Below, one piece after another: positions 32,677 through 48,333 of a DNA stretch of 64,000 bases (the stretch's first letter is position 1; the number at the start of each line of letters is the position of its first letter). This DNA is from Terriglobus aquaticus (GTDB lineage: Bacteria > Acidobacteriota > Terriglobia > Terriglobales > Acidobacteriaceae), in the NCBI RefSeq assembly GCF_025685415.1, contig NZ_JAGSYB010000001.1, forward strand, positions 3,534,001-3,598,000, in the 5' to 3' direction. Below the pieces are notes generated by a model. The model did not search any database and was not told the DNA's origin. It worked only from the letters and a program-made list of their open reading frames with translations. Made by a program: the position numbers and the translations under genes.

Positions 32677-35316
32677 TTACTGGGAGGCGGACACGACCGG
32701 TTCCGAAGGATGCCGCGGCAGGCGTACCCGGACCGTGGTGCCCTTGCCCTCTGCCGAGTCGATTTCCAGCTTGCCGTGGTGACGCTCGACGATTTCGTGC
32801 GAGATGTACAAGCCCAGCCCGTTGCCCAGGTCGCCCTTGGTTGAAAAGAAGGGCTGAAACACATGCTTCCGCATCGATTCCGGAATGCCCGCGCCATCGT
32901 CGGTCACGCTCAGCACGGTATCGTCCCCGTCATACACGGCGTTCAGGGTTACGTTGCCGCCCACGCGCGCCGCGTCCAGCGCGTTGGAGATCAGATTTGC
33001 CAGCACCTGCCGAATCTGCCCGATGACGCCATGCACCACGATGTCTTCGGCATAGCGCTTGTGAACCGCGATCATGCGGTTGCGCGTCTTGCCCTGGAAA
33101 AGGCGCAGAACCTCGCCAAACATCGCGGATGCCAGGAAGTCCTCTTCCGCAGCGCGATCTTCCCGATTCCAGCGCAGCGTCTGCTTGGTGATGCCGCTGA
33201 TCCGCTCCAGCTCAGCTTCCGCCATGCCAATGTACTCGCCGGCGTTTCCGGTGTCGCCCGCTTCCAGCCGCAGCAGGTACATCAGGTTGGTGATGGATTC
33301 CAGCGGGTTGTTGATTTCGTGCGCGATCACGCTGGTCATGCGTCCGCTCAGGGCAAGCTTTTCCGCGATGCGCAGGGCATCTTCGCGCTCCCGCCGCTCG
33401 GTCAGGTCCAGCAGAAATCCAACCCAGCCCGCGGGCCGCTTGCCCACCCTGCGAAACGGTGTAAGGCGCACCAGGTTCCAGCGGTCGGCGCCGTTGCTGC
33501 GCACGCGAACCTCCGCCTCCAGAACTTCCCGTTGATCGACGACAGCCTCTTCCCACAGAGCCCTGACCCGGGCTTCGTCTTCGGGAGCCAGGCGGCCATC
33601 TCCGAACCACAAGCCGCTGTCGCTCAGGCCATCCTCTCGCCAGCGCTGATTCACATAGGTCAGCATGCCTTCCGCATTGCAGGTGAATACCTTGGTGGGC
33701 AGGCTGTGGGTCAACTGCAGGAACCGGGCAGAGCTCAGCTCGGCTTCTTCCTCCGCGCGCTGCAGGCTGATCGTTACCAGCGCATTGCGGAACTCTGTAG
33801 CGGATTCGGTTTCCACGTTGCTCCAGCGTTCGCTCTGGCCGTGAAACGTTTGCTGCCACTGGGCGAAACTGGTTCGCGGATGCAAGCGTTCGTTGCTGTC
33901 CACGTTCTTTACGGGTTCGCCGGCCCAGGTCACCGTTTCCAGAATCTCCGGCTTGAACCACAGGATGTAGCGCTGCGACAGATCTGAAATTCGAATTGCG
34001 AGCAGACCGCTTGCCTCCGCGGCGGAAGACGCGACCGCGGGCAGTTCGGCGCCCAGGGTGCGGGTTGCGTAGACCTCGAATTCGCCCTTGGTATCCAGCC
34101 AGTTCACAATCTGGGTCAGGACACGCTTCGGCGGCACCCGGCCCGTGGTGTACACCGTTCCGAAGTCCGACAAAGCCACGCCCGAGGCGTGCGTAACCTT
34201 CAGCAGCCGATCCATGCGGGTGGCGAGCGCCGGGATGTAGTCGGTTTCCGCCGCGATCTGCGTTAGCAACTCCCTCTGCACCGCATGGAACTCGACCAGG
34301 TCGTGCAGCCGGTCTGCCGTGCGGAACGCATTCAACTGCGTCCCAACCATCTTGGACAGCATGTCGCAGGCCGATCGGACCAGGAATGGAATCGTGCGTG
34401 GCTCGGCATGGTGGCCGCTGATCAGGCCCCACAGTTGGCCGTCCACCACGATGGACACACTCATGGAAGACAGCGTTCCCATGTTGCGCATGTACTCCAG
34501 GTGAACCGGCGATACGGAACGCAGAACCGAAAGAGACAGGTCAAACGCCGGAATCGCCTGCGTGCCAGCAGCAGCTGCACCCGGGTTCTCGGAGATACGC
34601 ACAATGGGAGACGGGGTGTAGTTCGCGTTGGGGATAATGCGAACGGTATTTAGGACGTACAGCTCGCGCGCCTGCGCCGGAATGTCAGTGGCAGGGAAGC
34701 GCAGGTCCAAGTAGCTGGGCAGGCGTCCGCTGTTCGACTCCGTCAACACGGTGCCGTGACCCTCGTTGTCAAAGCAGTACAGCAGGCACCGATCAAAGCC
34801 GGTCAGAGCGGCAAACTGGTCGGTGAACGCCTGGCACAGTTCCTGGCGGGTCTTCAGCCGCGCCAGGGTCCCCACAAAGTTGGTGATGACGGCGTTCATC
34901 ATCTCGGCGCCCACCAACCGGTCCTGGCGTTCGAACTCCAGGATGCGCGTGCTTTCCACGCAATGCGTGATGACCGAGAACAGTTCCTTCCGGATCTGGA
35001 ACGCGCCCAGGTAGCTGACCATGCCGGACGGGTCTACGCGGCAGTTCACCTGGCGAAGCGCCGCAAGCAGTTCGCGCTCAAACAGCAGATCCAGCGATCC
35101 ACCCAGGATCAGCTTGACCGGGACTCCAAGGAACTCTTCGGCATTCTCGCTGGCAAGAATGACGGTCTGCTGCTCGGCGTCCAGGCCAAGCAGGAACCCG
35201 TGCCGCTGGATCGCCCCCGGGGTGCGAATCAACTCCTGCGCGCAACCTTCCAGAGGGGTTGCAGGAACATCTGCTGGCTCTTGCGCCACTATGGGAGCGC
35301 TCAATTCAACTGACAT
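32677..35316 (-). CDS. bphP: Bacteriophytochrome photoreceptor histidine kinase
   Basis: A red/far-red light sensor of 879 residues ordered PAS-GAF-PHY-PAS-kinase. The biliverdin-linking cysteine is Cys25 in EGCAQELIRTPGAIQRHG. The GAF chromophore pocket has DLRFPATDIPAQARELY (Asp211) and SPVHLEYMRNMG (His272), with GLISGHH closing the pocket. The PHY tongue carries PRTSF (HPRTSFAQW). An extra PAS domain (TKVFTCNAEGMLTYVNQRW) precedes the kinase: H-box [20 protein letters not shown]-box NLISNALDAA and G-box GNGLGLYIS. The start at 35316 (MSVELSAPIVAQ) was preferred to an upstream Arg-rich one. The heme oxygenase gene lies 59 bases upstream and supplies the chromophore. No response regulator adjoins. 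Confidence 0.96.
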   Translation of the reverse strand: MSVELSAPIVAQEPADVPATPLEGCAQELIRTPGAIQRHGFLLGLDAEQQTVILASENAEEFLGVPVKLILGGSLDLLFERELLAALRQVNCRVDPSGMVSYLGAFQIRKELFSVITHCVESTRILEFERQDRLVGAEMMNAVITNFVGTLARLKTRQELCQAFTDQFAALTGFDRCLLYCFDNEGHGTVLTESNSGRLPSYLDLRFPATDIPAQARELYVLNTVRIIPNANYTPSPIVRISENPGAAAAGTQAIPAFDLSLSVLRSVSPVHLEYMRNMGTLSSMSVSIVVDGQLWGLISGHHAEPRTIPFLVRSACDMLSKMVGTQLNAFRTADRLHDLVEFHAVQRELLTQIAAETDYIPALATRMDRLLKVTHASGVALSDFGTVYTTGRVPPKRVLTQIVNWLDTKGEFEVYATRTLGAELPAVASSAAEASGLLAIRISDLSQRYILWFKPEILETVTWAGEPVKNVDSNERLHPRTSFAQWQQTFHGQSERWSNVETESATEFRNALVTISLQRAEEEAELSSARFLQLTHSLPTKVFTCNAEGMLTYVNQRWREDGLSDSGLWFGDGRLAPEDEARVRALWEEAVVDQREVLEAEVRVRSNGADRWNLVRLTPFRRVGKRPAGWVGFLLDLTERREREDALRIAEKLALSGRMTSVIAHEINNPLESITNLMYLLRLEAGDTGNAGEYIGMAEAELERISGITKQTLRWNREDRAAEEDFLASAMFGEVLRLFQGKTRNRMIAVHKRYAEDIVVHGVIGQIRQVLANLISNALDAARVGGNVTLNAVYDGDDTVLSVTDDGAGIPESMRKHVFQPFFSTKGDLGNGLGLYISHEIVERHHGKLEIDSAEGKGTTVRVRLPRHPSEPVVSASQ

Positions 35317-35375
35317 CGGAAGCCTAATAGGATGCGCGAACCGAGGGCGATGCAGCCTGCGCAATCACAGTTTTT

Positions 35376-35999
35376 CTAAGTCATGAACAAAGCGTTTTGG
35401 TCCGCTTCAGAGCTCTTTGAGAGGCACCGGCGGAACACGCCAAACATTTCCTTCGCCGCGCCGATCGCTTCGTCGCTGTAGATATCCGGCAGGTCCATCA
35501 GAACGCGCTGAAACTCCCGCCATTTCGGCACTGTGGAGGAGCCGTATCCGCGGAAAAAGGCGGTGCCTTCGCCGGCGGTCAGCCCCAGAACCGACTCCAC
35601 GTGGCTGGCAATGTACTGGCCTCCCAGCGTGGAACCCTCCACAACATACATGGCTCCCAGAAAACGGCCGGCTTGCTCTGGTGCGTCTGCGGGTGCGTCT
35701 GCCAGTAGATGCTCGATCTGCTCGACAACCCCAGCCGGGAGATCGCTCCGGAAATCCGCCTGGAAAAACCGGAGATCGGCTTCCAGCGCCGCGCGCCGGC
35801 TCCGTTGCCGCACCAGGTCCGCGTAGGCCGGTGGAACCCGTCTCGCCGCTACCGCTTCCCACGCACGGATCGCTTCATAAAAGCGTTGCAGCACAACCAC
35901 GTATTCCGCCCGTGTCAGGTCCGGGTGCATCAGGGGGACCATCGCTTCGGTCGCTTCGTGCTCGGGCCGCGTCGCCTCGCGCAGCAGCTTTGCATCCAT
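35376..35999 (-). CDS. bphO: Biliverdin-producing heme oxygenase
   Basis: A 207-residue oxygenase that opens heme to biliverdin, CO and iron. The proximal heme ligand is His14 in REATRPEHEATEAM, and the distal helix is YVVEGSTLGGQYIASH, with the conserved Gly pair that kinks over the heme. Length fits bacterial HmuO/BphO proteins. It lies directly upstream of the bacteriophytochrome gene on the same strand, so biliverdin supply for the photoreceptor, rather than iron scavenging, is the likely role. The 245 bases upstream (36000-36244) are shared with the divergent glycosidase gene; no clear promoter was recognised there. Confidence 0.94.
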   Translation of the reverse strand: MDAKLLREATRPEHEATEAMVPLMHPDLTRAEYVVVLQRFYEAIRAWEAVAARRVPPAYADLVRQRSRRAALEADLRFFQADFRSDLPAGVVEQIEHLLADAPADAPEQAGRFLGAMYVVEGSTLGGQYIASHVESVLGLTAGEGTAFFRGYGSSTVPKWREFQRVLMDLPDIYSDEAIGAAKEMFGVFRRCLSKSSEADQNALFMT

Positions 36000-36244: not shown

Positions 36245-37270
36245 TTGATCGAAGCCGTCGTTGTCTGGAACGAGCCGAACAACCTGTCCCATTGGAACTT
36301 CCACCTGGACCCGGGCTGGCAGCAGTTCGCCGCCATGGTCAAAGAGGGTGCGGCGGCAATGCGCTCAGTGAACCCGGTGCTGCCCATCGTCCTGGGCGGT
36401 GTGTCGTCCGGCGACCCGGACTGGCTCCGCCTGCAGGCTGGCTACGGAGTCATGGAGCACGTCGATGCCGTTGCCATCCACGGCTTTCCGTTGGACTGGA
36501 ATCACTGGCAGCTCACCGAGTGGCCGGAAAAGATTCGCGAAGCCGAACAGGTCACCGGACGACCGGTCTGGGTCACAGAGGTCGGCTGCTCGTCCTTTGG
36601 CTTGGAGGAAGTCGCCCAGATGGGCTTCCGCCGCACGATCGATCTCCTGCGCGGCAGAACTCCCCGCATCCACTGGTACTCGTTGTACGACCTGCCGCCA
36701 AGCTGGCCCGCAGAAACCCGCCATAAAGAGGCAGAGGGCTCCAGCTATTACCGGCATTACTATTTGGGCCTCTTGCGCCACGACGGCACGCCCAAGCTGG
36801 CCGCCGCGGACTTCCCAACGGACGGCTCCGTGGGCCTGTGCCAGTGGTTCCACTGGCAGGACCATCGCCTCGACGATGCGGTCGCTTGGATGCGTGAGCA
36901 CGAGGTGCAAAATCTGCGCACCGGGCTGAGCTGGGCCGATGCGTACCGCCCGGACGCCGAGGCCTGGTTCGACCACGTCTTCACCCAGCTTTGGCCCTTC
37001 CAGGTCGCCATGACCCTGTGTTTCACGCCGGGGCACCTGGGCAAGGAAGACCACCACACCAGCCCGCCGCTGGACAACGCCGACTTTGCCGAGTTTGCCG
37101 CCTGGGCCGTGGAACGCTACGCCTCCCCTGGCCAGACCGTTCCGGTCAACCCCAACTCCCGATCGCTGTATGACCTTTCCCAAATGCGTCGCCGCCACGC
37201 CGAGCTGAACGCGCAGCACCAGGTCACCAGCCCCGCACAAGTCTCGAAAGAAGAGGTCCTCGCCGTTTGA
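36245..37270 (+). CDS. Clan-A-like glycosidase with TIM-barrel strands in swapped order
   Basis: A 341-residue putative retaining glycosidase related to GH39/beta-xylosidase-type barrels. The acid/base motif VVVWNEPNNLSHWNF comes at once (Glu10) and the nucleophile is Glu112 in PVWVTEVGCSS. Beta-8 is RIHWYSLYD. Strands expected at the start of such a barrel appear at the end instead: VGLCQWFHWQDHRLDDAVAWM (about 196-216), NLRTGLSWADAYRP and VAMTLCFTPG, with the alpha-3-like helix EFAAWAVERYA. So the order is beta 4-8 then 1-3. The start is a TTG at 36245 with AAAGGG upstream; codons before it look non-coding. The stop overlaps the epimerase start (TTGA), making it the first gene of the glycan operon. 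Confidence 0.75.
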   Translation: MIEAVVVWNEPNNLSHWNFHLDPGWQQFAAMVKEGAAAMRSVNPVLPIVLGGVSSGDPDWLRLQAGYGVMEHVDAVAIHGFPLDWNHWQLTEWPEKIREAEQVTGRPVWVTEVGCSSFGLEEVAQMGFRRTIDLLRGRTPRIHWYSLYDLPPSWPAETRHKEAEGSSYYRHYYLGLLRHDGTPKLAAADFPTDGSVGLCQWFHWQDHRLDDAVAWMREHEVQNLRTGLSWADAYRPDAEAWFDHVFTQLWPFQVAMTLCFTPGHLGKEDHHTSPPLDNADFAEFAAWAVERYASPGQTVPVNPNSRSLYDLSQMRRRHAELNAQHQVTSPAQVSKEEVLAV

Positions 37271-38424
37271 GCATCCAGAGCGCACAATCTCTCCCGTCCA
37301 CCCAGAAGCGCAACGTCCTCATCACCGGCGGCGCCGGCTTTGTCGGCTCGCACCTGGCCGATGGCCTCTTGCGCCAGGGCCACGCCGTCCGCGTTCTGGA
37401 CGATCTGACGCCCCAGGTCCATCCCGGCGGCGTCCGGCCCGACTACCTGTCCAACGACGTCGAGCTGGTCCACGGCGACGTGCGCGATCCCAACCTGCTC
37501 AAGAGCGTGCTGGAAGGCATCGACGTGATCTACCACTTCGCCGCCACGGTCGGCGTGGGCCAGAGCATGTACGAAATCAGCCGCTACATGAGCGTGAACA
37601 CGCAGGGCACCGCGGAACTGCTGCAGGCCGTGCTCGACACCAAGGCGCCGGTCCAGAAGATCGTCGTCGCCTCCTCCATGTCCATCTACGGCGAAGGCCG
37701 CTACGTGGGCGCCGATGGCAAGCGCTACGCTCCTCCGGTCCGCACCGTGGAGCAACTGAAGCGCGGCGAGTGGGAGGTTTCGGTCGGTGACTCCGGCGCG
37801 TTGAAGCCGGTTCCCACCGACGAGGACAAGCCTAGCGAGATCAACTGCATGTATGCCCTCTCCAAGCGCGACCAGGAAGAGCTCTGCATGATCTACGGCC
37901 GCACCTACGGCCTGCCGGTGACGGCCCTGCGCTTCTTCAACATCTACGGCACCCGCCAGGCACTGTCGAACCCGTACACCGGTGTCGCCGCCGTATTTGC
38001 CTCGCGCATGCTCAACGGCCGCCAGCCGCTCATCTTTGAGGACGGCGAGCAGCAGCGCGACTTCGTCTCCATCCACGACATCGTTCGCGCCAACATCCTG
38101 GCGATGGACGCCCCGAAGTCGAATGGGGAAGTCATCAACGTCGGCTCCGGGAACCCGGTTTCGATCCGTCGCGTGGCCGAACTGCTGGCCAACGCTCTGG
38201 GCAGCAAAGGCTTGGAGCCTGTGGTCACCGGTAAATACCGCGCCGGCGACATCCGGCACTGCTACGCCGACATCTCCAAGGCGCGCGCGCTGCTCGGTTA
38301 CGAGCCGCAGGTGACCCATGAAGAAGGTTTCGCCGAGCTTGCCGACTGGCTCGCCGGCCAGGAGGCCGAAGACAAGGCAGACACCATGCTGCAGCAACTG
38401 GCGGCACACGGATTGACCGCCTGA
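37267..38424 (+). CDS. NAD-dependent sugar-nucleotide epimerase/dehydratase (extended SDR)
   Basis: An extended short-chain dehydrogenase of 385 residues acting on a nucleotide sugar. The Rossmann motif is VLITGGAGFVGSHLADGLL, VVASSMSIYGEG holds the catalytic Ser, and MYALSKRDQEELC the Tyr-xxx-Lys pair. DFVSIHDIVRANILAM is the usual substrate-domain motif. It resembles UDP-glucose 4-epimerase or GDP-mannose-type epimerases, but has an unusual Lys/Glu-rich insert after the Ser motif (YVGADGKRYAPPVRTVEQL). The start is TTG, overlapping the glycosidase stop. The exact reaction is open. Confidence 0.92.
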   Translation: MSIQSAQSLPSTQKRNVLITGGAGFVGSHLADGLLRQGHAVRVLDDLTPQVHPGGVRPDYLSNDVELVHGDVRDPNLLKSVLEGIDVIYHFAATVGVGQSMYEISRYMSVNTQGTAELLQAVLDTKAPVQKIVVASSMSIYGEGRYVGADGKRYAPPVRTVEQLKRGEWEVSVGDSGALKPVPTDEDKPSEINCMYALSKRDQEELCMIYGRTYGLPVTALRFFNIYGTRQALSNPYTGVAAVFASRMLNGRQPLIFEDGEQQRDFVSIHDIVRANILAMDAPKSNGEVINVGSGNPVSIRRVAELLANALGSKGLEPVVTGKYRAGDIRHCYADISKARALLGYEPQVTHEEGFAELADWLAGQEAEDKADTMLQQLAAHGLTA

Positions 38425-38583
38425 GTGGCGCGGTAAACACAAGGAAGCAACCTTTTTGGTGCAACGGGTGTTCCTGTGCCGTGAAACCCGCATCTATTCC
38501 CATAAAGGTACAAAGAACAGGTACATTCGTTGGAGTACCCTGGAACGTCAGTTCGAGGCACGAAAGGTAATAACGCGACCAGA

Positions 38584-39717
38584 ATGGCAGTGCAGCGCGA
38601 GATCCTGATCACCGGTGGCGCCGGATTTGTCGGTGCAAACCTGGCAGCTCGGCTCCTTGCCGAAGGCGGCAACAACGTCGCCATCTTCGACAACTTGTCG
38701 CGTCGCGGCACCGAGCACAACCTGAGCTGGCTGCGTACCCTGCCCCAGGCGAAGAACCTGCGCTACATTCACGGGGACGTACGCAATGCGCAACAGGTGA
38801 GCGACGCCGCTCGCTACGCGACGCAGATCTACCATCTGGCTGCACAGGTCGCCGTGACGACCAGCATCACCGACCCCAAGTGCGACTTTGACACCAACGC
38901 GCTCGGCACCTTCCACGTCCTCGAAGCGGCGCGCCGGCACGGTCGCCAGCCGATGGTGTTCTTTACCTCGACGAACAAGGTGTACGGTTCGCTGGAATCG
39001 GTTCCGGTGGAAAAGGCCGGCACTCGCTATCGGGCCACGGATCGAAAGTTCATCGGAGCGGACGAGAGTACGCCGCTCGACTTCCACTCGCCCTACGGCT
39101 GCAGCAAGGGCGCGGCGGACCAGTATGTCCGCGACTACGCGCGCATCTACGACCTGCCCACCGTAGTCTTCCGCATGAGCTGCATCGCCGGCCAGCGCCA
39201 GTTCGGCAATGAAGACCAGGGTTGGGTCGCCCACTTCCTGTACAGCGTGCTCTCCGGTCGGGCCATCACGGTCTACGGCGACGGCCTCCAGGTCCGGGAC
39301 ATTCTGCACATCGACGACCTGGTGAATGCCTTCGTCGCCGCCCGGGACAACATCGGCAGCACCGCCGGGCATGTCTACAACGTCGGCGGCGGCATGGGCC
39401 GCGCCATCTCGATTCGCGAACTCCTCGAAAAGATTGAACGGCGCGTGGAGCGCCCTGCTCGGCTCGAGTTCAGTGACACCCGGCCCGGCGATCAGCCGCT
39501 GTACGTCTCGAACACCACCCGCCTCGAGAGCCACACGGGTTGGAAGGCCGCACTTTCACTGGATCAGATCCTCGACAGTATTGAGGCGTTCTACTCCGCC
39601 AACCGCGGCCTGATCGCGCAGCGACCCGCCGCTTCCGCGGATGCCAAACCGCTGTCCGACAAAGGTTTTTCGTCCGCGCTGTCCACCCCGGCGCTGGCCA
39701 CGGCGGAGGCGCGGTGA
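38584..39717 (+). CDS. NAD-dependent epimerase resembling CDP-paratose 2-epimerase
   Basis: A second extended SDR of 377 residues. EILITGGAGFVGANLAARLL binds NAD. VFFTSTNKVYGSLE and SPYGCSKGAADQYVRDYARIYDLP carry the catalytic residues. The TNKVYG wording and QVRDILHIDDLVNAF are typical of CDP-paratose/tyvelose 2-epimerases (RfbE type). I chose ATG at 38584; a TTG at 38530 (AGG eight bases upstream) would add 18 residues not typical of the family and cannot be excluded. Two AGGTACA heptamers (38506-38512 and 38519-38525) lie just upstream. The stop overlaps the radical SAM start (GTGA). Confidence 0.9.
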   Translation: MAVQREILITGGAGFVGANLAARLLAEGGNNVAIFDNLSRRGTEHNLSWLRTLPQAKNLRYIHGDVRNAQQVSDAARYATQIYHLAAQVAVTTSITDPKCDFDTNALGTFHVLEAARRHGRQPMVFFTSTNKVYGSLESVPVEKAGTRYRATDRKFIGADESTPLDFHSPYGCSKGAADQYVRDYARIYDLPTVVFRMSCIAGQRQFGNEDQGWVAHFLYSVLSGRAITVYGDGLQVRDILHIDDLVNAFVAARDNIGSTAGHVYNVGGGMGRAISIRELLEKIERRVERPARLEFSDTRPGDQPLYVSNTTRLESHTGWKAALSLDQILDSIEAFYSANRGLIAQRPAASADAKPLSDKGFSSALSTPALATAEAR

Positions 39718-41027
39718 AGTTTGCCCTGGTCAACCCGCATTGGTCGTGGGAGGGCTCGACCTACTTCGGCTCGCAGGCGCCCGTGGTCCCGCTGGAACTG
39801 CTGGGAGCGCGTGAGTTCCTGCGCCGCGCCGGCCACGAAGTCCTGCTGATCGACGCATTCCTGCTGAAGCTGACGACGGACGAAGTGCGCGTCCAGCTTG
39901 AGGGCTTCGGCGAAGACTTCCTTGTCATGCCCACGGCGAACAGCTACCTGTTCTGGCGCTGCCCGCAGCCGGAGCTCCGCGTGCCCCAGGCCTGGCTGCG
40001 CGCCCTGACCACCGGCCGCACGCACCGTCCCACCACCGTCATCATCGGACCGCATGGTTCGTCCACGCCTATCGCCACGCTCAATAAGACCGGCGCCGAC
40101 GTGGTTCTGCGTGGCGAGCCGGATTCCAACCTGCCGCTGCTGGCCACCACGCCGCGCTTCGCCATTCCGGGCTGCGTGTGGAAAGAGAACGGCCGCGTGA
40201 TGCAGGCCTCCGAGCCGCTCGGCGTGGTCGACATGAAGATGGTGTCGCACCTGGACTTTAGCGACTACCCCATCGAGCTGCACACGCACAAGCACCACAT
40301 CTTTACGCCGGTCGAAGGCCTGGGCGCTGAACTCGAATTTGCTCGCGGCTGCCCCTACGCCTGCACCTTCTGCAACAAGACACAGTTCCGCAACAAGTAC
40401 CGCGAGCGCGACGTCGCCGAGGTGGTCGCGGAGATCGACGCGCTGATGGCGCGCGGCGTCACCTACATCTACTTCATCGACGAAATCTTTGGCGTCGGCA
40501 AGAACGTACGCACTCTGCTGGAAGAGATCGCGAAGCGTCCTTCGCTGTCCATCGGTTTCCAGACCCGCATCGACCTGTGGGACGAGGCAGGATTCGACCT
40601 GCTCGGCCGCGCCCACTGCATCAGCATGGAGTGCGGCATCGAGAGCATCACCGAGCAGGGCCGCGACGAGATGAACAAGAACTGCAAGTACTCCACGGAG
40701 CGCATCACCGAGCTCCTGGTGTACGCAAAGACCCGCATCCCCTGGGTGCAGGCAAACCTGATCAAGACACCGCACGACAATCCCGAAGAGGTGCGCGCCT
40801 TCCAGGATCATCTGAAGGCCAACGGCGTCTGGGTCTCTGAGCCGGTGCCTATGTTCCCCTTTCCCGGATCTCCTGAGTACGTCACGACCTTCGGCGCGCA
40901 GCCGGACGACCGTGCCTGGGAACGGGCCCATGAGTTCTACCTCAATCTCTTCGCGGACAAGGGATTCTCCGACATCCAGGATCAGCAACCCATTCCGCTG
41001 CCTGAACTCGAGTCTGCATGCCGCTGA
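39714..41027 (+). CDS. Radical SAM protein with B12-binding-type N-terminal domain
   Basis: A 437-residue radical SAM protein. The N-terminal 160 residues have the Rossmann-like layout of cobalamin-binding domains (ALVNPHW, HEVLLIDAFL, TTVIIGPHGSSTP, GADVVLRGEPDSNLPLL). The canonical DxHxxG cobalt-ligand motif is not evident. The radical SAM core starts at Cys213-xxx-Cys217-xx-Cys220 (RGCPYACTFCNKTQFRNKYR). YIYFIDEIFGVG and SMECGIESITEQGRDEMNKN are later barrel strands. Such proteins methylate or rearrange unactivated carbons. With two epimerases upstream and glycosyltransferases downstream, a modified sugar is the likely substrate. The start is GTG, overlapping the upstream stop. Confidence 0.9.
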   Translation: MKFALVNPHWSWEGSTYFGSQAPVVPLELLGAREFLRRAGHEVLLIDAFLLKLTTDEVRVQLEGFGEDFLVMPTANSYLFWRCPQPELRVPQAWLRALTTGRTHRPTTVIIGPHGSSTPIATLNKTGADVVLRGEPDSNLPLLATTPRFAIPGCVWKENGRVMQASEPLGVVDMKMVSHLDFSDYPIELHTHKHHIFTPVEGLGAELEFARGCPYACTFCNKTQFRNKYRERDVAEVVAEIDALMARGVTYIYFIDEIFGVGKNVRTLLEEIAKRPSLSIGFQTRIDLWDEAGFDLLGRAHCISMECGIESITEQGRDEMNKNCKYSTERITELLVYAKTRIPWVQANLIKTPHDNPEEVRAFQDHLKANGVWVSEPVPMFPFPGSPEYVTTFGAQPDDRAWERAHEFYLNLFADKGFSDIQDQQPIPLPELESACR

Positions 41028-41188: not shown

Positions 41189-42301
41189 ATGCGCATCCTG
41201 ATGACCACCGACACTGTCGGCGGCGTGTGGACCCAAACGCGAGAACTGGTTGCAGGTCTGCTGCGGGCCGACCCCTACATTCGCATCTTCCTCTTTGCCG
41301 TCGGAAGCACCTGCAGCCCGGAACAACTGGGCTGGCTGCGGGCCATGCGCGAGCGCAACCCGGGCCGGTTCGACTCCGCGGTTCACTCCGTGCCGCTGGA
41401 GTGGGAGCAGCGCAACGACCAGGTCGATCCGTTCGAGCCGCGCCTGCTCAGCATTGCGCGAACGTTTGCTCCGGAAGTCTTTCACAGCTCACAATTCTGC
41501 TACGGCGCTCTTCCGGTGGATTGCCCGCGCCTGGTGGTCGCCCACTCAGACGTTCTGTCCTGGTTTCGAGAGGTTCACGGAACAGAGCCGGAGCCGTCGC
41601 CCTGGATCGACCGGTACGTCTCGCTGGTGCGCCATGGCGTGGAGCAGGCATCCGCAGTCGTTGCACCCACCCGATGGATGCTGCAGGCCTTTCGTGATGG
41701 CTTCCCCGCTCCGGCACACACACGAGTCATTTACAACGGCGTCAGCTTTCGGCCTCGCCCACCGCAGGAGCGGCTGCTGCAGGCGGTGACCGCGGGACGT
41801 CTGTGGGATCAGGCCAAGAACGTGGCCCTCTTGCAGCGCCTGCAACACCCAGCCGTACCCCTGCTTGTCGCGGGAGCTTCGCAGCACGAGAACGAGACTC
41901 TGAAGTGGAAGGGCAGCGAGGCAATCCAATTGCTCGGCAACACCTCGCGCCGCGACCTGCTCTCGCTCTTCGCGCAATCGGCAATGTATCTGTCGACCGC
42001 GATCTACGAGCCATTTGGCCTTTCAGCGCTGGAAGCCGCGCGCTCCGGCTGCGCCCTGCTTGCGCTGGATATCGAATCCATGCGGGAGGTGTGGGGCAAC
42101 GCTGCCTTGTACTTCCGCACCGTCGAAGAACTCGCTGCAGCGATCGAGCACCTCGCCAGCTCGCCCAGGGCGTTGGCCCTGGCGCAGCAGCAAGCCGAGG
42201 CCACCGCCGCCCAGTACACGCGCGAGCGCATGGCAGATTCCTACCGCGCGCTCTATCGTGAACTGATGGATTCACCCCGGGGGAACTCTGCCGTTGCTTA
42301 G
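41189..42301 (+). CDS. Glycosyltransferase family 4 protein
   Basis: A 370-residue GT-B retaining glycosyltransferase. The N-terminal half begins RILMTTDTVGGVWTQTRELVAGLL. The nucleotide-sugar half shows RVIYNGVSF, VTAGRLWDQAKN and the GT4 E-x7-E motif YEPFGLSALEAARSGCALLA. It is probably cytoplasmic, extending a glycan on a nucleotide-sugar donor. It follows the radical SAM gene after 161 bases that contain an 8-bp hairpin (41142-41164), so transcription may be modulated here. Its end overlaps the next gene by eight bases. Acceptor and donor unknown. Confidence 0.92.
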   Translation: MRILMTTDTVGGVWTQTRELVAGLLRADPYIRIFLFAVGSTCSPEQLGWLRAMRERNPGRFDSAVHSVPLEWEQRNDQVDPFEPRLLSIARTFAPEVFHSSQFCYGALPVDCPRLVVAHSDVLSWFREVHGTEPEPSPWIDRYVSLVRHGVEQASAVVAPTRWMLQAFRDGFPAPAHTRVIYNGVSFRPRPPQERLLQAVTAGRLWDQAKNVALLQRLQHPAVPLLVAGASQHENETLKWKGSEAIQLLGNTSRRDLLSLFAQSAMYLSTAIYEPFGLSALEAARSGCALLALDIESMREVWGNAALYFRTVEELAAAIEHLASSPRALALAQQQAEATAAQYTRERMADSYRALYRELMDSPRGNSAVA

Positions 42302-43424
42302 CATCGCCATCTTTCTGCACACGTTGCGCTCCGACTGGAACAATGGCAATGCCCACTTCCTGCGCGGTCTGGCGCGCGAACTCGGGTCGCTTGGCCACAC
42401 CGTGCGCGTCCTTGAGCCGGTGACCAACTGGAGTGTCGAGAACCTGCGCACAGAGCCAAACGGCGAAGCCTCGCTGGCGCAGTTCGCCACGACGTACCCC
42501 GACATCGACCTGCGACTCTACGACCCGACTGACCCGGACCTGCGCAACGAGCTCATGCGCGAACTGCACGGCTTCGATGCCGTGATAGTGCATGAGTGGA
42601 ACGAGCGCGGACTGATCGATCTCCTCCTCGACCTGCGGTCGGAACTCGGCTTCCGCGCTCTCTTCCATGACACGCATCACCGCGCCTCCTCCTCACCCGA
42701 GGCGATCCGGTCGCTGCGTGTCGACGAGTTCGACGGCGTGCTCGCCTTTGGCGACGCGCTCACGAAGATCTACAAGGAGCGCTTCGGCATCACGGAGTGC
42801 TGGACGCTGCACGAAGCCGCGGACACCACCGTCTTCTACCCGCGCGAGGCGCCCACCGAGCAGGAGCTGATATGGGTTGGCAACTGGGGAGACGGCGAGC
42901 GGTCCGCCGAACTGCGCGAGTTCCTGATCCGTCCGGCCAGGCGTTTGCGCGAGCAATACGGCCCTGAGGGCTTTCGTGCCACCATCTACGGCGTGCGCTA
43001 TCCCGCCGACGGTCTGGCCGCGCTCGCCGATGCCGGCATTCGCTACGGCGGCTATCTTCCGAATCTCGCCGCGCCGGACGTGTACGCGCGAAGCCGCGTC
43101 ACGATGCACGTTCCGCGCCAGCAGTACAACGACGCGCTCACAGGCATCCCGACCATCCGCGTCTTCGAGGCGCTCGCCAGCGGCATCCCGCTCGTCTCCG
43201 CGCCCTGGCAGGACACCGAAGAACTCTTCCGCCCGGGCGACTTCACCCTCGTCTCAAACGGCGAAGACGCGTACGAAGAGCTGAACTTGCTGCTGGATCC
43301 CGAAGAACGCGACAACGCGCAGGCACAGATCGAACAGGGACTCGCCACCGTGCTCGCGCGCCACACCTGCGCGCACCGCGCGGCGCAACTCACGCGCATC
43401 CTCACCGAGGAGGTGCTGGGATGA
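42294..43424 (+). CDS. CgeB-like glycosyltransferase (first of three)
   Basis: A 376-residue GT-B protein of the CgeB type. It opens LSIAIFLHTLRSDWNNGNAHFLRGL, a wording shared with the copies at 44171 and 47251 (SWGNGHATTFRAL). The second half has ELIWVGNWGDGER, GGYLPNLAAPDVYARSRVTMHV and the donor-site IRVFEALASGIPLVSAPW. Bacillus CgeB is linked to spore-surface glycosylation; here the partner is unknown. The start is TTG inside the upstream gene. The stop overlaps the next start (ATGA). Confidence 0.87.
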   Translation: MLSIAIFLHTLRSDWNNGNAHFLRGLARELGSLGHTVRVLEPVTNWSVENLRTEPNGEASLAQFATTYPDIDLRLYDPTDPDLRNELMRELHGFDAVIVHEWNERGLIDLLLDLRSELGFRALFHDTHHRASSSPEAIRSLRVDEFDGVLAFGDALTKIYKERFGITECWTLHEAADTTVFYPREAPTEQELIWVGNWGDGERSAELREFLIRPARRLREQYGPEGFRATIYGVRYPADGLAALADAGIRYGGYLPNLAAPDVYARSRVTMHVPRQQYNDALTGIPTIRVFEALASGIPLVSAPWQDTEELFRPGDFTLVSNGEDAYEELNLLLDPEERDNAQAQIEQGLATVLARHTCAHRAAQLTRILTEEVLG

Positions 43425-43777: not shown

Positions 43778-44172
43778 GGAAACTTGGTCGTGTTATGCGG
43801 GGTCGTATGCCGCAGACGCTTTACAAGACTCCAACTCCAGATCAGATTGACGAGTACGCCGACTGCGGCAGGACCATAAGGACCGTGACGAAACATCCAG
43901 GCGCTGACATACAAGGAGATCTGCAAGAGTACGAGCATGCCTACCGATAAGTAGCGATTCCATCTCGTCCGGCGAACCGGGCGTTCTCCGGCACGCAATC
44001 TTCTCCTAAAGTCCATAGCGATGAAGGCTAGCGCGACACAGAGGAAAAGCAGTATGACTACTGTCAGTTGGTCGCTGTTGACCACGCCCGTAAGTCCCAC
44101 TCCAACAGCAGCCAACACGGCAATCAAAAGCCAGATGGTGTAAGCCAGACGGTTCACGGAAAGAATGTACAT
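43774..44172 (-). CDS. Small four-helix membrane protein, reversed within the glycan cluster
   Basis: No family recognised. The 132 residues form about four hydrophobic helices: IWLLIAVLAAVGVGLTGVV, LTVVILLFLCVALAFIAM, YLSVGMLVLLQISLYVSAW and AAVGVLVNLIWSWSL. An Arg-rich loop (RRRLRAGERPVRRTRWNR) lies in the middle. Its ATG overlaps that of the next gene on the other strand (CATG at 44170-44173), and its 3' end overlaps the previous gene. It is the only opposite-strand gene between 36245 and 50775, and its plainer, less GC-skewed sequence suggests it was inserted later. Confidence 0.6.
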   Translation of the reverse strand: MYILSVNRLAYTIWLLIAVLAAVGVGLTGVVNSDQLTVVILLFLCVALAFIAMDFRRRLRAGERPVRRTRWNRYLSVGMLVLLQISLYVSAWMFRHGPYGPAAVGVLVNLIWSWSLVKRLRHTTPHNTTKFP

Positions 44173-45286
44173 GAAGATTTTCGCCTTCGGCTCGTCGCTC
44201 GTCTCCAGCTATTGGAACGGCGCGGCCACCTACTATCGCGGTTGTTACAAGTACCTGGCGCGCCTCGGCTACGAAGTCACCTTCGCCGAACCCGATGCCT
44301 ACGGCCGCCAGACGCACAAGGACGACGTTGATCTTTCGTTCGCGAACCTGGTCACCTACAAGCCCGTGGGCAGCGAAGGCGACTTCGGCCACGGTCCCGA
44401 CTACGATCACCTGCCGACGCTGCACGAGGTCTTTGAGGAAGCGCGCAAGGCCGACGTCGTCGTGAAGCACTCCGGCATCGGCGTGGACGACGCGCTTACG
44501 GAATCACTGATCCTCGAAGCGCAGCCGCACGCGCTCGCCATCTACTGGGACGTCGACTCGCCCGCCACGCTCGCGCGCATGGACGCGGACCCGAACGACA
44601 GCTTCCGGGCCGTTGTGCCACGGCTCGACGCGATCTTCAGCTACGGCGGCGGCCCCGTCTGCCGCGAAGGCTTCGAGCGCTACGGCGTGCAGCACTACAT
44701 CCAGGCCTACAACGGCCTCGACCCGGAAACGCACTATCCCGTCGCGCCCGATCCGAAGTACGCCTGCGATCTTGCCTTTCTCGGCAATCGCCTTCCCGAC
44801 CGCGAGGCACGTGTCGAAGAACTCTTCCTGCGCGCCGCCGAACTCGCACCCGACCAGACCTTCCTGCTTGGCGGCGAGGGTTGGGGCGACAAGCCGATGC
44901 CACCCAACGTGAAGTACATCGGCCACGTCCCCACCGCCCAGCACAACGTGCTCAACTGCTCCGCGCGCACCGTGCTCAACATCAACCGTGCCAGCATGGC
45001 GAACAGCGGCTTCTCGCCACCGACGCGCGTGTTTGAGGCCGCCGGCGCCGCCGCCTGCATGCTGTGCGACGACTGGCCGGGGCTCGATGACTGCTTCCAG
45101 CCCGACACCGAAATCCTCGTCGTGCGGAACGCCGAAGACGTCGTCCGCCATCTGCACACCCACGACGCCGCGGCCACCAAACGCATTGGCCAGGCATTCC
45201 TCCAGCGAGCCCTGCGCGACCATACCTACGCGCAACGCGCCGCGCAGGCCGACGATGCCATTCGCTTCCTCAGAGGAAAGCGATAG
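44171..45286 (+). CDS. CgeB-like glycosyltransferase (second of three)
   Basis: A 371-residue GT-B protein. It begins KIFAFGSSLVSSYWNGAATYYRGC. AIYWDVDSPATLARM (about 120-135), AIFSYGGGPVCREGFERYG and VLNINRASMANSGFSPPTRV are typical CgeB-family blocks, with FEAAGAAACMLCDDWPGLDD at the donor site. I took the ATG at 44171 (GGAAAG seven bases upstream) rather than one two codons earlier. Same family as its neighbours at 42294 and 47251, but well diverged, suggesting three different linkages rather than gene amplification. Confidence 0.9.
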   Translation: MKIFAFGSSLVSSYWNGAATYYRGCYKYLARLGYEVTFAEPDAYGRQTHKDDVDLSFANLVTYKPVGSEGDFGHGPDYDHLPTLHEVFEEARKADVVVKHSGIGVDDALTESLILEAQPHALAIYWDVDSPATLARMDADPNDSFRAVVPRLDAIFSYGGGPVCREGFERYGVQHYIQAYNGLDPETHYPVAPDPKYACDLAFLGNRLPDREARVEELFLRAAELAPDQTFLLGGEGWGDKPMPPNVKYIGHVPTAQHNVLNCSARTVLNINRASMANSGFSPPTRVFEAAGAAACMLCDDWPGLDDCFQPDTEILVVRNAEDVVRHLHTHDAAATKRIGQAFLQRALRDHTYAQRAAQADDAIRFLRGKR

Positions 45287-45872: not shown

Positions 45873-47210
45873 ATGCGGCGTTTGGTGTTCCTGTTTCTTT
45901 TCGTTCTGTGGATCGGCAGCGGCACGTTGCGTGCGCAGGGAACTACGGCCGAGCACATCGCAGAACGCGCCGCCCAGGCCGAGATCAACGAAACTCCACG
46001 CGATGGCAACCTTCGCTCGTACCGCCTTCCGCTCGAGGACCTGACCAAGGCCGAGCACCTGGAGCACACGCGCACACTGCTCGAAATTGGTGGCACGGCG
46101 TGGGGCATCATCTCGCTTTACCTCCTGCTGCACTTCGGCGTGATTGGCCGCATGCAGAGCGCTGTCACTTCGCGCTTTCGCAATCGATGGGCGCAGGGCT
46201 TCGCCTTCTTGTTGCTGTTTCTGCTTGCAACGACCCTGCTGGGCTTACCCCTGGATGTGTACAGCCAACACCTGCGGCGAAGCTACGGCCTCTCTGTGCA
46301 GAGTTGGGCGAGCTGGCTCGGAGACCAGGCCAAGAGTTTCGGTTTGAGCTGGGCGATTGGCGGCCTGCTTGTCATGCTTCTCTTCTTCGTCATCCGCAAG
46401 GCGCCGCAGCGATGGTGGCTCATTTTCTGGGCGGCGTCCATTCCCATCACACTCGTGGCCATCCTTCTCACGCCCTACGTCATCGATCCGCTCTTCAGTG
46501 ATTTCGAGCCGCTCAACGCCTCGCACCCTGAACTCGTGCAACGGCTCGAACAGGTGGTCGAGCGCGGCCACATGAACATTCCGCCAGATCGCATGTTCCT
46601 GATGAAGGCGTCGGAGAAAAGCACAACGCTCAACGCCTACGTGACCGGCTTCGGCGCCTCCAAGCGTGTCGTTGTATGGGACACTAGCATCGCCAAGGGC
46701 ACGCCCGACCAGATCCTGTTCATCTTTGGCCACGAATCCGGCCACTATGTTCTGCACCACATTGCGTGGGGTATCGCGCAGTCCATGCTTGGCCTGCTTT
46801 TGCTGCTGGCCGTCAGCTACCACCTGCTCACACCGCTGCTGTGGCGCTACGGCACACGCTGGGGCATCACCGTCCAGTCGCAGTGGGGAGCGCTCGCCGT
46901 CCTCGTGCTGATCTTCAGCGTCTTCGGCGCGGTTACGCAGCCCATCTCAGAAGCCCTGAGCCGCAGCAAGGAACACGCTGCCGACGTCTACGGCCAGGAG
47001 GCCATTCACGGCCTGGTTGCCGATCCCAAGGAGGCAGCGCGGAGCGCGTTTCAACTCCTCGGCCAGACCAGCTTCGACGATCCCAATCCCTCGCCCATCG
47101 TGGAGTGGTGGACCTACTCGCACCCGGCCATCGGCCGCCGCGCCGCCTTCGCCGCGCACTACGATCCGTGGCAGCCCGGCATGGAACCTCGCTACTTCCC
47201 AAAGCATTAG
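45873..47210 (+). CDS. M48-family membrane metalloprotease (Ste24/CAAX type)
   Basis: A 445-residue zinc protease. A signal-like N-terminus is followed by several membrane helices (FLLLFLLATTLLGLPLDVY and GGLLVMLLFFVIR among them). The zinc site is HESGHYVLHH, with the third ligand in SRSKEHAADVYGQEA. FLMKASEKSTTLNAYVTGFG is the conserved M48 block before the active site. In eukaryotes Ste24 trims CAAX proteins; bacterial relatives act in envelope quality control. It lies between glycosyltransferase genes with short gaps, perhaps by insertion into the cluster. Confidence 0.92.
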   Translation: MRRLVFLFLFVLWIGSGTLRAQGTTAEHIAERAAQAEINETPRDGNLRSYRLPLEDLTKAEHLEHTRTLLEIGGTAWGIISLYLLLHFGVIGRMQSAVTSRFRNRWAQGFAFLLLFLLATTLLGLPLDVYSQHLRRSYGLSVQSWASWLGDQAKSFGLSWAIGGLLVMLLFFVIRKAPQRWWLIFWAASIPITLVAILLTPYVIDPLFSDFEPLNASHPELVQRLEQVVERGHMNIPPDRMFLMKASEKSTTLNAYVTGFGASKRVVVWDTSIAKGTPDQILFIFGHESGHYVLHHIAWGIAQSMLGLLLLLAVSYHLLTPLLWRYGTRWGITVQSQWGALAVLVLIFSVFGAVTQPISEALSRSKEHAADVYGQEAIHGLVADPKEAARSAFQLLGQTSFDDPNPSPIVEWWTYSHPAIGRRAAFAAHYDPWQPGMEPRYFPKH

Positions 47211-47250
47211 CCGCGCCACGTCCGCTTGCAGCTTCTACAATGAAGCTCGC

Positions 47251-48333
47251 ATGAAGATCGTGATTCTCGGCCTGTCCATCACCTCGTCCTGGGGCAACGG
47301 CCACGCCACCACCTTTCGAGCGCTCTGCCGCGAGCTCCATCGGCGCGGCCACAGCATCACCTTCATCGAAAAGGACGTCGAGTGGTACCGCTCGAACCGC
47401 GACCTGCCGGAGCCGCCCTACGTCAAGCTCTGGCTCTATGAAGATTGGCAGCGCGACGGCATCGGCACGGTGCGCGACGCCATCCGGGACGCCGACAGCA
47501 TCGTCGTCGGCTCCTACTTTCCAGACGCCATCGCGGCCACCGCCCTCCTCCAGCAGGAAGCGAAAGCGCCCGTCCTCTTCTACGACATCGACACGCCCAT
47601 CACCATCGCTGCTCTGCGCCTGCACGGCCAGTGCGAATACCTGCGCGCACAGGACATCCCGTTTTACGCGGCGTATCTCTCCTTCACCGGCGGACCCACG
47701 CTCATGGAGATCGAACAGCGCTTCGGCTCTCCACGAGCCGTTCCGTTCTACTGCTCCGTCGATCCCGAGGCCTACCACCGCACTGCCGTGCAGCCGGAGT
47801 TCGCCTGCACCATGAGCTACCTTGGCACTTACGCCGCTGACCGCCAGCCCAAGCTCATGGAGCTGCTGAACGCTCCCGCCGCCGCCCTGCCCGGCGAGCG
47901 CTTCCTCGTTGCCGGCCCCATGTATCCCGCGGACACGCAGTGGACCCGCAACGTGGTCACGCATCCGCACCTGCCGCCATCCGATCATCCCGCGCTCTAC
48001 TCTTCCTCGCGCTGGGTGCTCAACCTCACGCGTGCGGACATGGTCGCCGCCGGCTACTCGCCCTCGGTGCGCCTCTTCGAGGCCTCGGCCTGCGGCGCGC
48101 CGATCCTCAGCGACGCGTGGCCCGGCATGGACGAGTTCTTCGCCCCGGGCAAGGAGATTCTGCTCGCCTCCAGCACCGATCAGGCGCTCAGCATTCTTCG
48201 CAACTTCGACGAAGCGGAAGCCCGCCGCATCGGCGAAGCCGCCCGCGAACGCACGCTGGCCAAGCACACTTCCGCCAGACGCGCCGAAGAGTTCGAACAG
48301 GTCATGAACGGCATCACCTCTGCAACCACTTAG
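47251..48333 (+). CDS. CgeB-like glycosyltransferase (third of three)
   Basis: A 360-residue GT-B protein beginning KIVILGLSITSSWGNGHATTF. Family blocks include VLFYDIDTPITIAALR, YLSFTGGPTLMEIEQRFG, and WVLNLTRADMVAAGYSPSVR with FEASACGAPILSDAWPGMDE. The start at 47251 is where the family begins. A TACAAT lies nine bases before it and a four-codon reading frame ending in ATGA overlaps it. It resembles the copy at 44171 more than the one at 42294 in its DIDTP/DVDSP motif. Only 12 bases separate it from the GH92 gene. Confidence 0.9.
   Translation: MKIVILGLSITSSWGNGHATTFRALCRELHRRGHSITFIEKDVEWYRSNRDLPEPPYVKLWLYEDWQRDGIGTVRDAIRDADSIVVGSYFPDAIAATALLQQEAKAPVLFYDIDTPITIAALRLHGQCEYLRAQDIPFYAAYLSFTGGPTLMEIEQRFGSPRAVPFYCSVDPEAYHRTAVQPEFACTMSYLGTYAADRQPKLMELLNAPAAALPGERFLVAGPMYPADTQWTRNVVTHPHLPPSDHPALYSSSRWVLNLTRADMVAAGYSPSVRLFEASACGAPILSDAWPGMDEFFAPGKEILLASSTDQALSILRNFDEAEARRIGEAARERTLAKHTSARRAEEFEQVMNGITSATT

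Follow-up and report, generated by a model that had tools for sequence, protein, structure and literature searches.

Within the window, by which we mean the whole 64,000-nucleotide stretch of Terriglobus aquaticus DNA that was analysed, one gene very probably encodes a naturally circularly permuted (beta/alpha)8 glycosidase, with the strands predicted in the order beta4-5-6-7-8-1-2-3. Judged by its sequence the protein is of clan GH-A type, and its nearest relative in the PDB is PslG, a GH39 enzyme. In the rearrangement that we propose, a short linker near residues 186-196 would now connect the ancestral ends, which lay behind alpha8 and ahead of beta1, and the chain would have been opened anew between alpha3 and beta4. 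The barrel would still close, with beta3 beside beta4, so that the beta4 end would carry Glu10 and the beta7 end Glu112, in the places where a retaining beta-glycosidase needs them. The order, the conservation, the modelled closed barrel, the collinearity after rotation, the single clade, and the cluster context were computed, as described below.

An intact gene and its conserved order

The glycosidase gene (36245-37270, + strand, stop codon at 37268-37270) is one intact open reading frame with a TTG start that encodes 341 amino acids. Conservation runs from the start codon, and relatives share the start residue. The initial annotation had described a protein that opens at WNEPN and continues past Glu112 to HWYSLYD, with segments from the start of a barrel placed last, and the sequence reads as it was quoted. 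WNEPN occupies residues 8-12 and includes Glu10, WVTEVG bears Glu112, and HWYSLYD spans residues 143-149, whereas CQWFHWQDHRLDDAVAW, LRTGLSW, and TLCFTPG come last, within residues 199-263. The final 48 residues (294-341; 37124-37267, + strand) are a variable tail outside the barrel. It is modelled with low pLDDT, most relatives do not have it, and otherwise it differs.

We scanned one genome per species, which gave 305 stretches encoding relatives, and kept the best 80. All of these best 80 of 305 have the same order, as had been asked of homologues, from residue 1 (residue 2 in one of them) to about residue 293, and they are 53-84% identical to the window protein. Relatives occur in Acidobacteriota, Myxococcota, Pseudomonadota, Verrucomicrobiota, Gemmatimonadota, Nitrospirota, and other phyla. 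Their frames begin M(V/I)EAV..WNEPN, and many end at residues 293-296 with ..RRYA. An alignment of 38 sequences has 87 invariant columns, including Glu10 and Glu112, which are invariant in all of the permuted sequences aligned. This shared order among the kept relatives, together with the invariant columns, is far from chance.

Linear-profile families miss or mislabel such proteins. The Pfam match of the window protein is to Glyco_hydro_cc (PF11790; E 1e-5), with partial coverage, and none of the NCBIfam models covers the permuted family. Members encoded next to TIGR04290 methyltransferases bear the NCBI label "beta-xylosidase" or "glycosyl hydrolase", which does not mention permutation.

A CATCTACT(T) motif lies 105 nt before the start at 36245, at about 36140. 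It is also upstream at L001, L002, L004, L009, L016, and L023. In the window and some Acidobacteriaceae relatives it is 79-165 nt upstream of the gene, in DNA that is otherwise not conserved, and it is possibly a promoter or a regulator site.

The predicted barrel and its rotation

AlphaFold2 modelled the window protein from 38 sequences with a pLDDT of 85.6 and a pTM of 0.84. A model of a 295-residue relative from Sorangium cellulosum So ce26, encoded at L061:5001-5885, has the same eight strands (pLDDT 91.3, pTM 0.90); the alignments for both predictions held fairly close relatives only (about 54% identity or more). All coordinates that follow are on the + strand. The chain begins with beta4 (residues 2-7), which together with WNEPN covers 36248-36280 and includes the putative acid/base Glu10 (36272-36274), an invariant residue aligned to the WNEPN of PslG. 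Next are beta5 (residues 48-54; 36386-36406) and beta6 (residues 75-80; 36467-36484), and the alignment shows an invariant HGFPLDWNHW after beta6. The putative nucleophile Glu112 (36578-36580), again invariant and aligned to IWSTEWG of PslG, is in beta7 (residues 108-113; 36566-36583), which is followed by beta8 (residues 142-145; 36668-36679). The post-beta8 loop (residues 155-171; 36707-36757) is highly conserved, with invariant residues, and is modelled with low confidence (pLDDT below 50 at 155-170 in the window protein and at 157-167 in the S. cellulosum relative). From the alignment and the best rotation point, residues 186-196 (36800-36832) would be the linker from the ancestral C terminus to the ancestral N terminus, and its length varies. 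Beyond it, and aligned to unpermuted relatives, are beta1 (residues 197-199, the start of GLCQWFHW; 36833-36841), which matches their N-terminal region, beta2 (residues 223-229, in the LRTGLSW region; 36911-36931), and beta3 (residues 253-259, in the TLCF region; 37001-37021). The conserved domain ends with alpha3 (residues 278-292; 37076-37120), the helix that adjoins beta4 when the order is unpermuted, and relatives stop near residue 294.

Residues 195-293 or so had been expected to supply strands 1-3 of the barrel that starts at the N terminus, and in the models they do. The same closed fold is therefore predicted, in two models, despite the rearranged order. Taken whole, the domain can be fitted on single TIM barrels of known structure, and on the de novo designed barrel 7uek the two models had Z scores of 13.6 and 13.4 over 214 and 217 of 228 residues. 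TIM barrels superpose in any register, so a whole-barrel fit alone is no proof of permutation, and our argument rests on the register of the catalytic residues and on sequence collinearity. Residues 1-195 of the relative fit residues 156-356 of PslG (Z 12.2-12.4, rmsd 2.1-2.2 Å, 175 residues, 23% identity). As modelled, the first strand falls on PslG beta4, and PslG beta1-3 are left to the C-terminal third. Foldseek alone gave weak partial matches only, which we did not count against permutation because it aligns sequentially.

We also compared PslG with native and rotated profiles built from the same nine sequences. The native profile matched it over residues 3-185 (31.5 bits, E 9e-7), whereas the profile rotated at residue 193 matched over residues 7-271 (49.5 bits, E 3e-12). 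In the rotated alignment the old N and C ends become the linker, and the new ends align on PslG without a gap, with query YAMIEAVVLWNEPN on PslG YPSVAAWQVWNEPN at the junction.

In plasmid records, a search found partial matches in Rhizobium, Paracoccus, and Tistrella, within long proteins labelled "NAD-dependent epimerase", each of which joins an unpermuted glycosidase (about residues 1-305) to an epimerase (about residues 320-660). Rhizobium etli RHE_RS22270, Paracoccus sp. AK26 FIU66_RS17910, and Tistrella mobilis TMO_RS19500 are the closest unpermuted relatives that we found, at about 33% identity to the permuted form, and they have the same glutamates and neighbours as the window gene. 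However, their strands are in the normal order, and the glycosidase is the N-terminal domain of a protein of 660-680 amino acids with an NAD-dependent epimerase as its C-terminal part. The native profile matched the Tistrella fusion as two swapped domains, 194-295 on 12-115 and 5-188 on 120-301 (162.6 bits; we give bits for this comparison because its E-values refer to three sequences). Two swapped domains were also the result for all three unpermuted relatives and for 13 more loci, which include a near-duplicate of Tistrella. In contrast, profiles rotated at residues 190-196 gave a single match to the fusions, with up to 171.5 bits (at 193), and other rotation points lowered the score or split the match. 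An alignment to unpermuted GH39-like proteins, rotated at about residue 195, had been suggested as a check; rotation at 193 yields one collinear match. Permuted and unpermuted forms are about 32% identical (27-37%), with 35 nearly fixed residues.

The initial annotation had offered two readings, a true circular permutation and a fusion that puts the second half of one barrel in front of another barrel's first half. The predicted fold, the rotation, and the order in homologues all favour the former. A half-swap would make the protein a hybrid or a pair of incomplete domains, and it would account for the order of the halves, taken by itself. However, we disfavour it, since one and the same unpermuted family is matched by both halves, at much the same score per residue (about 0.5 bits over 100 residues and 0.6 over 185). 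Furthermore, the rotated profile yields a single domain, on PslG as well, and the models show one complete eight-stranded barrel, not two separate incomplete domains. We therefore regard such a chimera as highly unlikely. We give practically no credence to a frameshift, a misassembly, or a wrong start, by which the true first half would lie upstream and the C-terminal segment would be a second domain. The TTG start codon and 43 more open codons before it (an open frame of 384 amino acids) speak for this, but conservation breaks off abruptly at the start codon: upstream of it the DNA is about 20-40% identical to that of four relatives, and from there on about 70-83%. Because there are just 43 open codons and identity jumps at this point, no first half is hidden upstream, as had been claimed. 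The ends are identical in independent genomes of many phyla, and the gene is intact and single-copy in its own genome (4.16 Mb, two contigs). The shared ends of relatives and the DNA conservation from the TTG refute an upstream frameshift that would restore strands 1-3.

Distribution of the permuted and unpermuted forms

The phylogeny of the circularly permuted barrel was examined with a tree of rotated permuted domains and unpermuted domains. All 38 permuted sequences formed one group (support 100/95), and 13 unpermuted fusions were grouped apart (96/90); the outgroup branches of this tree are very long, and we used the permuted/unpermuted split and left the root aside. The permuted family may have a single origin. 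Since the strands of PslG and of the unpermuted relatives are in the normal order, we take the permuted state to be the derived one. The new order could have arisen by tandem duplication and then loss of the outer halves; we found no tandem or doubled intermediates among the loci examined.

Six permuted genes were found in 297 Acidobacteriota genomes. The 337 genomes sampled from the class of Azospirillum (G297) have 7 permuted and 6 unpermuted fused genes, and the 195 sampled from the phylum of Pyxidicoccus (G301) have 26 and 5, respectively. Both forms are carried by G301 and G764, where the permuted copy is intact and lies on a different contig from the fusion. In each of the five myxobacterial unpermuted fusions that we examined (L143-L147, from G301, G751, G764, G765, and G777), Ala or Ser replaces the nucleophile Glu, in WITAAG, WITSAG, or WLSAAG, and one with WSAPE has lost the acid/base. 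Their glycosidase domains are probably dead, to go by these motifs. The alphaproteobacterial unpermuted fusions keep both glutamates.

Cluster context, probable activity, and known systems

The glycosidase stop codon has a 4-nt overlap with the gene for NAD-dependent epimerase/dehydratase 1 (37267-38424), and epimerase/dehydratase 2 (38530-39717) follows; these and all genes in this series are on the + strand. Both are Pfam assignments (Epimerase for the first), and cluster comparison pairs the second with the epimerase that other clusters carry in fusion with the unpermuted glycosidase. Next are a TIGR04295 B12-binding radical SAM protein (39714-41027; NCBIfam 573.7 bits, cut-off 400) and four glycosyltransferases recognised by Pfam (41189-42301, 42294-43424, 44165-45286, and 47017-48333), the last with a counterpart in related clusters. 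A GH92 glycosidase (48346-50775, +) and an M48/CAAX-type protease (45873-47210, +) are also present, among the glycosyltransferases at the cluster end. Directly upstream of the glycosidase, on the other strand, a bacteriophytochrome-like sensor kinase (32677-35364, -) adjoins a heme oxygenase (35376-35999, -), and they are likely a light-sensing pair.

At the best 80 of 305 loci, epimerase 1 was a neighbour in 52, epimerase 2 in 50, a TIGR04290 methyltransferase in 50, the radical SAM protein in 40, and each glycosyltransferase in 31-50; the flanks of these loci are often short, and the epimerase and glycosyltransferase matches include paralogues. The initial annotation placed the gene at the start of a conserved sugar operon. 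That holds in Acidobacteriaceae, but elsewhere the gene often comes after the TIGR04290 methyltransferase gene. In the window genome the TIGR04290 methyltransferase is at G000:C1:3806588-3807262, about 236 kb from the cluster. A 584-amino-acid protein (L083:12969-14723) to which neither Pfam nor NCBIfam gave a match is found repeatedly in the vicinity of the permuted glycosidase, at 11 of the 80 loci and in S. meliloti (31-47% identity). Our S. meliloti comparison used the record of a strain other than 1021. Our literature search found no paper naming TIGR04295, TIGR04290, or the S. meliloti locus tags that we presumed, and none tying the locus to the R. etli lipopolysaccharide genes on p42b.

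In plasmid records, genes for inositol-3-phosphate synthase and a histidine phosphatase are often beside the permuted gene. Because the inositol synthase is in many clusters, an inositol-containing glycan as substrate is a reasonable guess, no more. Paracoccus yeei has the permuted gene and a separate epimerase 2, and Paracoccus sp. AK26 has the unpermuted glycosidase-epimerase 2 fusion with the same kinds of glycosyltransferases and methyltransferase. The match between these clusters suggests that the permuted and unpermuted forms do the same job.

The protein has the marks of clan GH-A, with an invariant glutamate in WNEPN after the strand at residues 2-7 and another in the strand at residues 108-113, in the region aligned to the PslG nucleophile. 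Its similarity to GH39 is seen in both the rotated and the native match to PslG (E 3e-12 and 9e-7). However, beta4-8 precede beta1-3 in place of the canonical beta1-beta8 order, and therefore we call the protein GH39-like and do not file it under GH39. The acid/base of PslG is Glu165 and its nucleophile is Glu276 (PMC11912335). Because Glu10 and Glu112 correspond to this catalytic pair in the alignment, the activity is most likely that of a retaining beta-glycosidase or transglycosidase. The permuted protein has no N-terminal extension that could be a signal peptide, so it is probably cytoplasmic. We infer the activity, the retaining mechanism, the cellular site, and the substrate. We picture the surrounding epimerases, glycosyltransferases, methyltransferase, and B12-radical SAM enzyme as assembling an oligosaccharide, with the glycosidase trimming, releasing, or transferring a beta-linked sugar in the process. 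Where an equivalent cluster has the unpermuted version fused to epimerase 2, that protein probably takes this role.

We consider it likely that the protein has catalytic activity, as a glycosidase or transglycosidase, and that it serves this biosynthetic cluster. That it is a true permuted barrel acting mainly as a transglycosidase, building a linkage and not hydrolysing one, is possible but somewhat doubtful. The biosynthetic cluster and the lack of a signal peptide are in keeping with it, as is the fact that GH70, a known permuted glycosidase-type barrel, makes glucans (PMC4919382). However, no sequence feature found here separates hydrolases from transglycosidases, and PslG, the closest structure, is an endo-beta-glucanase (PMC11912335). 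There is less to be said for a permuted barrel without catalysis that serves as a sugar-binding or regulatory subunit. The myxobacterial fusions show that loss of the nucleophile happens in the wider group, but the invariance of Glu10 and Glu112 across the aligned permuted sequences makes this improbable here.

PslG of Pseudomonas aeruginosa (PDB 4zn2, 5bx9, 9g17) belongs to the exopolysaccharide (Psl) system and is the best PDB sequence match of the window protein. It has the same type of barrel, with WNEPN at beta4 and a Glu at beta7, but its strands run from beta1 to beta8 in a longer chain and identity is about 23%. The window protein is permuted, its conserved part is about 295 residues long, and nothing extends it at the N terminus. 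Its cut is at almost the same place as that of GH70, a natural permutation of a glycosidase-type barrel with the order alpha3-beta4 ... beta8-alpha8-beta1 ... beta3 relative to GH13 (PMC11046441). However, GH70 proteins are alpha-glucan enzymes and large extracellular multidomain proteins, and the window chain begins at beta4 and ends at alpha3. Pfam and PDB sequence searches gave no match to GH13 or GH70, and only the kind of rearrangement is shared. Transaldolase and class I aldolase, a TIM barrel pair whose relation has been discussed as non-sequential (PMC2213659), are a similar case but are not glycosidases.

We found no report of a natural circular permutation in clan GH-A or GH39, in a search that covered few subscription journals and is weak evidence of novelty. 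Even so, this is probably the first naturally permuted clan GH-A (GH39-like) glycosidase to be described. It would be a widespread family of single origin that shares its cluster niche with an epimerase-fused unpermuted counterpart, and its GH70-like cut would suggest that the beta3/beta4 side is favoured when glycosidase barrels are re-opened. The oligosaccharide cluster would thus contain a probably intracellular glycosidase. There are few good test cases of natural permutation within an enzyme family. Here, both topologies persist in comparable clusters, even within Paracoccus, and some genomes (G301 and G764) hold both. Because they coexist, it is directly testable how the order of the chain affects folding and catalysis. 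Furthermore, the near coincidence of this cut with that of GH70 relative to GH13 makes a convergent rule testable as well.
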